A stretch of DNA of 64,000 bases from Spirosoma rigui (GTDB lineage: Bacteria > Bacteroidota > Bacteroidia > Cytophagales > Spirosomataceae), in the NCBI RefSeq assembly GCF_002067135.1, contig NZ_CP020105.1, positions 3,658,001 through 3,722,000 of the forward strand, in the 5' to 3' direction. The notes beneath the pieces are model-generated. The model was not told the origin of the DNA and ran no database searches. It saw only the letters and a list, made by a program, of their open reading frames with translations. This document shows, piece by piece, positions 31,793-34,108 of the stretch. Positions within the stretch are counted from its first letter, which is position 1. Every line of letters begins with the position of its first letter. The translations under genes were made by a program, and so were the position numbers.

Positions 31793-31823
31793 AGCCCGTT
31801 GCTGAAAAGTAACGGGCTTTTTT
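31793..31823 (+). terminator. Rho-independent terminator after the sugar dehydrogenase
   Basis: AGCCCGTT (31793-31800), a 10-nt loop, AACGGGCT (31811-31818), then a run of T to 31823. A standard intrinsic terminator. The about 185 nt between it and the next promoter show no gene. Confidence 0.92.
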
Positions 31824-32015: not shown

Positions 32016-32070
32016 ACCAACCCTTACAGCCCTATGCCTCCAGCGGGAGGTGCCCGATTTCACCAGCTAT

Positions 32071-33234
32071 ATGAATCAACTTTTAGATTTTTTACGGCGG
32101 CTGACCGACACCAGCGACTGGCCTCCCCGTTGGTATTGTGGTAACTGGACCGATTTTCACGGGTGGCTTTATATCGTCTCTGACCTGACCATCTGGCTGG
32201 CCTACATGGCTATTCCCCTTATACTGATCCGGTTCGTTATTTTGAAGAAAGGGGTTCCTCTACCGAGTGTTTTCATTCTGTTTGGGGCATTTATCCTCCT
32301 TTGCGGAGCAACGCACCTTGTCGATGCGCTCATGTTCTGGTGGCCAGCCTACCGATTCAATGCCCTCATCCGGTTCCTGACCGGTGTGGTGTCGGTGGCT
32401 ACGGTTGTCGCACTGATCCGGTATTTTAAAGAAGCAGTGGGGCTGCGTACGTCCCGAGAGTTTGAGCGGGAACTCCTGTTCCGGCAACAGGCAGTTCAGG
32501 AACTGAGCCGATCTAACCAGGAACTTCAGCAGTTTGCCTACGTAGCATCCCACGACCTGCAGTCGCCCCTCAAAACCATCGTTAATTACCTGACGCTGCT
32601 GGAAAGTAGATACGGGCATCAGCTGGACCCCGATGGTCATAAGCTGATCGACACGTCGACGGCTGCGGCCGGCCGTATGCGTACACTCATTAACGACCTG
32701 CTCGATTTCTCCCGGGTAGGCTCCGTGGCGGAGTTTGAGCCGGTCGATCTGAACAGCCTGATTGCTGAGATCATCGAAGAGCACCAGGACGATATTCGGT
32801 CGGCCAATGCGACTTTGGATATAGGCCCGCTGCCTACCCTGACGGCGCATCGAACGGATCTGAAGCAGGTGTTTCAAAACCTGATAACCAACGGCCTCAA
32901 ATACCGTCGTCCCGACGTTGATACCCGGCTGCGAATCTCCGCAACCGACCTGGGAGCGCAGTACCAGTTTAGCGTGGCCGACAATGGCATTGGTATCGAA
33001 CCTCAGTACTACGAGCGGGTTTTCCAGATCTTCCAGCGCCTGCATGGCCGCGGCCATTATCCCGGTACGGGTATAGGGCTTGCCACCTGCAAAAAAGTTA
33101 TTGACATCTACGGAGGCAAAATCTGGGTCGCTAGTGAGCCTAATGTTGGTTCAACCTTTTACCTAACCATACCTAAAAAAATTAAAACGGTTCAACATTA
33201 TGCCGAAACCGATCAGTTGCATCCTGTTAATTGA
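32071..33234 (+). CDS. Sensor histidine kinase with ETR1-like ethylene-binding domain
   Basis: 387 residues: three membrane helices (about 33-57, 66-89, 96-116), then HisKA with phospho-acceptor His161 (VASHDLQSPL) and an HATPase with N box (FQNLITNGLKYR), DNGIGIEP and GTGIGLATCKKV. The membrane part matches the ethylene-binding domain of plant ETR1. Asp38, Tyr45, Ile48, Pro49, Phe71, Ile75, Cys78 and His82 correspond to ETR1 D25, Y32, I35, P36, F58, I62, C65 and H69 with identical spacing. Cys78/His82 would hold Cu(I). No GAF or PAS domain intervenes. The start is ATG 32071; a GTG at 32050 is in frame. Ethylene as the signal is an inference. Confidence 0.9.
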   Translation: MNQLLDFLRRLTDTSDWPPRWYCGNWTDFHGWLYIVSDLTIWLAYMAIPLILIRFVILKKGVPLPSVFILFGAFILLCGATHLVDALMFWWPAYRFNALIRFLTGVVSVATVVALIRYFKEAVGLRTSREFERELLFRQQAVQELSRSNQELQQFAYVASHDLQSPLKTIVNYLTLLESRYGHQLDPDGHKLIDTSTAAAGRMRTLINDLLDFSRVGSVAEFEPVDLNSLIAEIIEEHQDDIRSANATLDIGPLPTLTAHRTDLKQVFQNLITNGLKYRRPDVDTRLRISATDLGAQYQFSVADNGIGIEPQYYERVFQIFQRLHGRGHYPGTGIGLATCKKVIDIYGGKIWVASEPNVGSTFYLTIPKKIKTVQHYAETDQLHPVN

Positions 33235-33607
33235 CGACGATCCCGACGATAATTTCTTTCACCGGATTGTTATAGAGGAATCAGGTTTGTGTAGTACGGT
33301 ACGGGTGGCCGAAAATGGCCGCGATGCGCTGGCGTACCTCACGGGGACTGATCAGGCGGAGTATGTACGACCCGATGTCATCTTTCTGGACATCAACATG
33401 CCGGGAATGAATGGGTTCGAGTTTCTAGTCCAGTACCAGAAGCTGACCGAAGATCAGAAAAGCCGTTTGGTATTACTTATGTTGACAACCTCACTGAGTA
33501 TAACCGACCAGCAACAGGCCGCTCTGTCGGGCGAAGTGGCTGGATACTATACCAAACCGCTGACAACGGCGATCATTGCGGAAATTGTTGAAAAGCACTT
33601 TGGGTAA
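33200..33607 (+). CDS. Single-domain response regulator (Rcp1-like)
   Basis: 135 residues, receiver domain only: acidic pocket Asp12-Asp14 (IDDDPDDN), phospho-acceptor Asp64 in FLDINMPGMNGFEF, Thr96 and Lys119 (YYTKPL). It resembles the receiver proteins paired with phytochrome-type kinases. It overlaps the kinase gene by 35 nt, so it is translationally coupled and is the obvious partner. With no output domain it must act by protein contact or pass phosphate to a further protein. Confidence 0.92.
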   Translation: MPKPISCILLIDDDPDDNFFHRIVIEESGLCSTVRVAENGRDALAYLTGTDQAEYVRPDVIFLDINMPGMNGFEFLVQYQKLTEDQKSRLVLLMLTTSLSITDQQQAALSGEVAGYYTKPLTTAIIAEIVEKHFG

Positions 33608-33613
33608 ACCAGT

Positions 33614-34108
33614 ATGACCATCTGCCTGCCATCGCCGGTCGGGCTCGTCCGCATTACCGGTACTGAAACCGGCGTGACGGCCATTACGTGTCTGAACGAA
33701 CCCGACCCGGCGGTTGCGCATGCCGGGCCGGTAGCCGATCCTGTACAGCGGGCGTTTGACCAGCTGGCCGACTACTTTGCCGGCACACGCCAGGTCTTCG
33801 ATTTTCCCCTGGCTCCCGTGGGTACTACCTTCCAGCAGTCGGTCTGGAAGGCTTTACTGACTATCCCGTTCGGAACGACTCTGTCTTATCGGACATTAGC
33901 CCGGCAACTGGGCGATGAGAAAGCCATCCGGGCGGTAGCCGCTGCCAACGGGCGAAATCCGCTGGCCATAGTCATTCCCTGCCACCGGGTTATCGGGTCC
34001 GATGGTTCACTGACGGGCTACGCGGGTGGCCTGTGGCGCAAGCAGTGGCTGCTTGAACATGAAGACGCCCTGCCGGGGTACAAAACCGGTCAGATGCGCC
34101 TATTCTGA
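33614..34108 (+). CDS. ogt: Methylated-DNA--protein-cysteine methyltransferase
   Basis: Repairs O6-methylguanine by irreversible transfer of the methyl group to its own cysteine. 164 residues, with the active site IPCHRVIG (Cys123), the helix-turn-helix segment FGTTLSYRTLARQLG and Arg/Asn in ANGRNPLAIV. It lacks an AdaA domain. It follows the response regulator by 6 nt, so it may share its transcript, though a functional link is unclear. Confidence 0.93.
   Translation: MTICLPSPVGLVRITGTETGVTAITCLNEPDPAVAHAGPVADPVQRAFDQLADYFAGTRQVFDFPLAPVGTTFQQSVWKALLTIPFGTTLSYRTLARQLGDEKAIRAVAAANGRNPLAIVIPCHRVIGSDGSLTGYAGGLWRKQWLLEHEDALPGYKTGQMRLF

Follow-up and report, generated by a model that had tools for sequence, protein, structure and literature searches.

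The closest described counterpart of the locus reported here is AzoEtr1 of Azospirillum brasilense. A published account describes AzoEtr1 as a 525-aa protein with an ethylene-binding domain (EBD), a PAS domain, and a kinase, followed by an overlapping 135-aa receiver (PMC11819568). According to the same account, the first 130 residues of AzoEtr1, expressed in Pichia, bind [14C]ethylene, AzoEtr1 affects root colonization in Azospirillum, and seven residues are required for ethylene binding (PMC11819568). In the plasmid region of A. brasilense Sp7, we found the 525-aa AzoEtr1 with an ETR1_N domain (132 bits) and PAS, HisKA, and HATPase_c domains.

The plant receptors additionally contain a GAF domain, and CTR1 relays their signal. 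SynEtr1 of Synechocystis, compared here by description, is likewise a bacterial ethylene receptor of the same family and differs in being reported as bifunctional. Its second signal is light. The literature also reports saturable ethylene binding by cyanobacterial proteins with an ETR1-type domain and responses of cyanobacteria to ethylene. For ETR1 itself, published modelling assigns a single Cu(I) to C65/H69 of each monomer and buries it where the two subunits of the dimer meet (PMC6586836), and a structure of the domain is credited to Azhar et al. (PMC10452086). The plant Cu(I)-ATPase RAN1 binds ETR1 directly, with a KD of 33 nM, and is proposed to be its main copper source (PMC6656775). 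Among the literature matches listed, the titles and opening parts of abstracts described no ethylene receptor from Bacteroidota, and the one openly licensed paper found to mention both ethylene receptors and Cytophaga-type names dealt with a slime mould. Putative receptors in other phyla are credited to Lacey and Binder 2016 and Papon and Binder 2019 (PMC11819568), so the presence of such receptors in Bacteroidota may already be in print.

We analyzed a 64,000-nt stretch of the Spirosoma rigui genome (contig NZ_CP020105.1), hereafter referred to as the window. It encodes a sensor kinase and a receiver that, by sequence, follow the AzoEtr1 plan minus the PAS domain (Table 1).

Table 1. Positions of the kinase-receiver pair, its domains and flanking features in the window, and of one ATPase-fused relative
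Feature	Position	Strand	Basis
Likely intrinsic terminator of upstream gene	31793..31823	+	read by eye; 10-base loop
Sensor histidine kinase, 387 aa, ETR1_N - HisKA - HATPase_c	32071..33234	+	ORF and Pfam
ETR1_N ethylene-binding domain (EBD), residues 30-123	32158..32439	+	Pfam, 105.7 bits; AlphaFold2 model, moderate confidence here
Cys78, counterpart of ETR1 Cys65 (copper ligand)	32302..32304	+	alignment; kept in 55/55 rows, window included
His82, counterpart of ETR1 His69	32314..32316	+	alignment; kept in 55/55 rows, window included
HisKA, residues 152-217	32524..32721	+	Pfam, E = 2.1e-13
HATPase_c, residues 261-370	32851..33180	+	Pfam, E = 4e-25; Foldseek matches include solved sensor kinases
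35-nt overlap of kinase 3' end and receiver 5' end	33200..33234	+	ORF coordinates
Single-domain receiver, 135 aa, phospho-acceptor Asp64, Lys119	33200..33607	+	Pfam Response_reg, 58 bits, sole domain
6-O-methylguanine DNA methyltransferase (Ogt/MGMT type)	33614..34108	+	scan; 6 nt past receiver
HMA (GMTCTNC) - P-type ATPase (CPC) - ETR1_N - PAS - kinase, 1532-aa ORF	L140:4440-9038 (genome G383)		Pfam

Architecture of the kinase-receiver pair

An earlier note on the window had described an ETR1-type ethylene/Cu(I) domain in a two-component pair, fused directly to a kinase without a GAF domain and overlapping a receiver gene by 35 nt. Its coordinates and its length for the overlap were exact, and the Pfam scan of the kinase, which detected neither PAS nor GAF, bore out the direct fusion. 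The kinase frame opens with the ATG at 32071, a position that holds the first ATG in 28 of the 34 loci L032-L065 in a start-site comparison; a longer frame from a GTG at 32050 is possible. With 105.7 bits against a Pfam cut-off of 27 (E = 1.5e-30), the N-terminal domain belongs to PF25487, and chance resemblance to ETR1_N was rejected on that E value. The single-contig genome of 5.83 Mb holds one copy of the domain; a second copy was looked for and rejected.

The kinase carries HisKA and HATPase_c domains, with His161 in the motif ASHDLQSP assigned by reading as the phospho-acceptor, and the linked receiver retains the conserved Asp and Lys, so that the two genes make up a two-component pair. 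Asp13, Asp64, and Lys119 were kept in all 43 aligned receivers, the window's among them. Solved structures of Rcp1, RcpA, and RcpB matched the receiver at E values of 1.2e-6 to 2e-8, whereas other receivers reached 7e-16; the label "Rcp1-like" given to it earlier is thus right as to kinship but loose.

The pair shares with AzoEtr1 an N-terminal EBD bearing all seven binding residues, the HisKA/HATPase_c kinase, and an overlapping 135-aa single-domain receiver. AzoEtr1 differs in its PAS domain, its length of 525 aa, an overlap of 8 nt (by reading), and its location on a plasmid. The EBD of the window kinase is identical to that of AzoEtr1 at 38 of 115 positions, and ETR1 is about as close to AzoEtr1 (35/104). 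With the plant ETR1 family, the window protein has in common the ethylene-binding domain, the residue spacing, and a kinase-type output; its EBD differs from the Arabidopsis sequence in all but 36 of 104 positions. Other members of the family also have a kinase that lacks both PAS and GAF. On plasmid pBSY18_2 of Blastomonas sp. RAC04, a 381-aa protein likewise joins ETR1_N straight onto a kinase with receivers nearby, although the kinase is of the HWE type and the receivers lie on the opposite strand.

To place the pair among its relatives, we drew on a scan of 84,980 species' genomes, which gave 377 pattern matches, 364 of them confirmed, and 80 loci kept and named. The length class of kinases without PAS or GAF (370-450 aa) accounted for 46 of these 80 relatives and was checked by Pfam in L035 and L068. 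At 36 of the 80 loci, the start of a receiver gene lay no more than 60 nt from where the domain gene ends. Among the 32 direct-fusion loci within L032-L065, an adjacent receiver was found in 21, of which 15 had the same 35-nt overlap as the window, and was not detected in the other 11. Loci where no receiver was detected beside the kinase include five from Larkinella. Members of 500-560 aa had an adjacent receiver in 12 of 19 cases, with overlaps of 1 to 17 nt.

The flanks of the pair gave few leads to its output. An automatic scan for promoters and terminators returned nothing, its limits being exceeded by the 10-base loop of the terminator that we read by eye upstream (31793-31823); with that terminator in place, the pair probably begins its own transcript. 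Apart from the kinase and the receiver, no gene is widespread across the 80 named loci; the largest of the remaining neighbor clusters is present at nine, and the neighborhood was rejected as a clue to the output. The three neighbors scanned in the window encode sugar dehydrogenase-type, DNA-alkylation repair, and beta-lactamase-fold proteins, and none of the three is a copper protein or has a link to plants. The Ogt/MGMT-type gene may be co-transcribed with the pair. It also directly follows the receiver in L032, L033, and L041, an adjacency that probably reflects local synteny. DNA is alkylated by ethylene oxide.

The ethylene site, its conservation, and the likely signal

We take the seven residues required for ethylene binding to be D25, Y32, I35, P36, I62, C65, and H69 of ETR1. 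In the alignment with ETR1, all seven are present in the window protein at an offset of +13: D25, Y32, I35, and P36 correspond to D38, Y45, I48, and P49, and I62, C65, and H69 to I75, C78, and H82. F58, which the earlier note had counted as an eighth residue, corresponds to F71, and all eight stand at the spacing it had claimed. AlphaFold2, run with 43 sequences, predicted helices at residues 29-58, 65-88, and 94-124, followed by a long helix at 128-184. The mean pLDDT was 82, and block means of 63-84 for residues 31-120 give the membrane part moderate confidence. Judged by sequence position in this predicted monomer, a single turn of helix 2 separates Cys78 from His82, and the model thus has the three helices that bring the two together, as the earlier note had asked, at that moderate confidence. 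A sequence search for a solved homologue of the membrane domain gave no match at E 1, and the 50 Foldseek rows listed for the model were all sensor kinases or related two-component proteins.

Since the patterns used to find the 80 named loci contain part of the motif, conservation was taken from 55 other rows, namely the window and 54 relatives chosen by HMM or tblastn and not by DNA motif. I35, P36, I62, C65, and H69 were invariant in these rows, as was F58, while Y32 was kept in 54 and D25 in 51 of the 55. As a group, the seven sites exceeded the remaining 97 aligned positions in conservation (rank test, p = 2.9e-5), with positions 58, 61, 66, 77, 98, and 101 also invariant. Dropped before the counts were L131, which is without Cys65 and Pro36, L123 (a copy of the window), and L019 and L056 (interrupted, with no domain cut out); L142-L144 and L152-L154 were not included. 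The domains were excised with a loose motif, which may bias the counts toward intact sites; with L131 included, Cys65 is kept in 55 of 56 rows. In a larger set of 122 rows there were six departures: one row has Y32F, and five have N, E, or S in place of D25.

L131 and L144 are divergent ETR1_N members, at about 52 bits. Because L131 passes the Pfam cut-off and yet has lost Cys65 and Pro36, a Pfam match alone does not imply a copper site. In Fibrella rubiginis (L019 / L056), the gene for the ethylene-binding kinase is broken by an in-frame TGA.

Losses of this kind bear on the idea that the membrane domain of the window kinase is a worn-out anchor and that the kinase senses something else. L131 and the broken Fibrella copy lend it some color, but the window copy is intact with every site residue present, and few parts of the domain are as well conserved as the site, which makes this idea highly improbable.

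The family membership, the ligand residues, and the precedent of AzoEtr1 give good support to an ETR1-type ethylene/Cu(I) domain in a two-component pair, as the earlier note had proposed. The identities of the domains, the residues, the gene pairing, and their conservation are established here. By analogy with ETR1 and AzoEtr1, from which the parts played by copper, ethylene, a dimer, and phosphotransfer are carried over, we consider it quite likely that the kinase binds ethylene in a Cu(I)-dependent manner and passes phosphate to the receiver encoded beside it. The receptor would be a dimer in the inner membrane, in which Cu(I) would sit among three N-terminal helices, bound by Cys78 and His82 of helix 2, and Asp38, Tyr45, Ile48, and Pro49 of helix 1 would shape the site. 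Ethylene binding to the copper would shift the helix bundle, and the long helix 128-184 would relay this shift and alter the kinase/phosphatase balance at His161. From there, the phosphoryl group would pass to Asp64 of the overlapping receiver. Because the receiver has no output domain, it would act by binding a protein partner encoded elsewhere. The Cu(I)-ATPase of the genome and the ATPase fusions of relatives speak for this reading. Against it count the 11 close direct-fusion relatives in which no adjacent receiver was detected, the lost site residues of L131, the scarcity of copper genes around the named relatives, and the moderate model confidence in the membrane part.

The copper ligands of the EBD, taken alone, are residues that a protein sensing copper, or some different ligand of Cu(I), would likewise retain. 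The domain might bind Cu(I) while responding naturally to the copper supply or to a small molecule other than ethylene that binds Cu(I), such as a different olefin, acetylene, CO, or a volatile isocyanide. Retention of the copper ligands in 55 of 55 rows is consistent with this, as are the Cu(I)-ATPase fusions of relatives, which have Asn at D25 and fit copper sensing as well as copper loading. However, all seven ethylene residues, beyond the copper ligands, are kept in the window and in most rows, AzoEtr1 binds ethylene and cyanobacterial proteins with the domain are reported to do so saturably, and no copper protein was among the three neighbors scanned. A copper or other non-ethylene signal is on this evidence unlikely. 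Should ethylene be bound, as we prefer, the gas sensing of the plant-hormone receptor family would reach well into Bacteroidota, and the small receptor (387 aa, no PAS or GAF) may suit structural work. ETR1 is reported to have resisted crystallization (PMC12643061).

Distribution and the question of a plant source

The sensor of the window is no oddity, as many members of the Spirosoma group have the domain family, which is present across Bacteroidota. With the window's genome counted in both surveys, PF25487 was found in 67 of the 200 genomes surveyed from the family of S. rigui, representing 15 of 36 genera, and in 21 of 395 genomes spread over Bacteroidota; none of 14 control genomes had ETR1_N. 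By the taxon recorded, the 80 named loci comprise 78 from Bacteroidota, one from Verrucomicrobiota, and one from Planctomycetota. Eighteen plasmid records carried a relative, seven of them from Azospirillum and the others from cyanobacteria and other Proteobacteria. The earlier description of a Cytophagales version as little studied agrees with the literature matches listed, but the family itself is common.

In a tree of 93 domains, the nearest to the window's came from a Spirosoma metagenome bin. The tree has few columns and long branches that meet, and we draw no inference of origin or transfer from it. The ethylene-binding kinases of L045 (Flavobacterium sp. SUN052) and L047 (a Rudanella bin) are almost identical and are followed by the same gene, which suggests that the locus was transferred or that a contig was mis-assigned.

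One version of the favored explanation is narrower and holds that the purpose of the receptor is to detect ethylene made by plants, as the earlier note had suggested. The reported effect of AzoEtr1 on root colonization in Azospirillum (PMC11819568) speaks for such a role, and the names of some relatives suggest soil or plants. For S. rigui itself we found the suggestion unsupported, since a search of the genome for ACC deaminase had a best score of 29 bits against a curated cut-off of 392, so that this enzyme was rejected, and the three neighbors scanned offered no plant link. At least one relative (LacPavin, L038) has a name that points to a lake-like source. Ethylene is also produced by microbes and from sunlit organic matter, which counts against plants as the sole origin, and cyanobacteria are reported to respond to it. 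A dedicated plant-ethylene sensor is thus rather doubtful.

Split receptors and copper-ATPase fusions in relatives

The larger novelty lies in relatives that have the receptor split or fused to a copper pump; these forms are more surprising than the window pair, which is of a known kind. Neither form was described among the literature matches listed, which are openly licensed papers.

The fused form was found in 3 of 80 genomes of one family, all from a single Bacteroidota genus. In genome G383, one ORF joins HMA, P-type ATPase, ETR1_N, PAS, and kinase (Table 1), and a receiver gene lies directly 3' of it. G569 (L141), another member of that genus, carries an ORF that is likewise 1532 aa long and in which the HMA, CPC, DKTGT, and EBD motifs recur, and in G655 (L143), also of that genus, the ATPase-EBD junction is present in a frame seen in part. 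A fourth genome of the genus had no ETR1_N match, and the other ETR1_N matches in the genome surveys had no open frame above 721 aa. From its CPC motif, we take the fused P-type ATPase to be of the copper (CopA) type. All three fusions have Asn at D25, which makes their ethylene affinity uncertain and a copper-sensing role possible. The arrangement echoes the plant pairing of RAN1 with ETR1 and, if the Cu(I)-dependent ethylene reading is true, would be a bacterial counterpart of RAN1 plus ETR1 in one chain. Such fusions would allow the delivery of copper to the receptor to be studied in a single protein.

The other relatives do not usually have copper genes nearby. Up to 6 kb on each side of the 80 named loci, no P-type ATPase or GMxCxxC protein was detected by motif, and a copper-gene neighborhood was rejected, one heavy-metal RND-type pump beside L098 (by reading) aside. 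The S. rigui genome encodes a Cu(I)-ATPase that scores 590 bits against a cut-off of 397 and is unlinked to the pair.

The split form was seen at nine of the 80 named loci (L072, L086, L089, L096, L099, L102, L106, L107, and L109), hosted by Cyclobacteriaceae, a Gramella, and uncultured Bacteroidota. Each encodes an EBD protein that lacks a kinase, is 159-207 aa long, and ends in a charged tail, by reading a probable coiled coil. The next gene on the same strand starts at -4 to +10 nt, and its product begins with hydrophobic stretches (by reading). A kinase motif was present in that gene at eight of the nine loci, the contig of L072 ending first, and a receiver came next at seven; Pfam confirmed the arrangement in L106 and L107. 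In the domain tree, the nine loci form one fork (support 98/92). We judge it about as likely as not that non-photosynthetic Bacteroidota in general can sense ethylene by way of copper and do so in a modular fashion, through direct, split, and ATPase-built-in forms.

At L084:5914-6486, a 190-aa ethylene-binding protein with a coiled-coil-like tail has no kinase gene directly after it, and a two-gene regulator pair (by reading) lies upstream.
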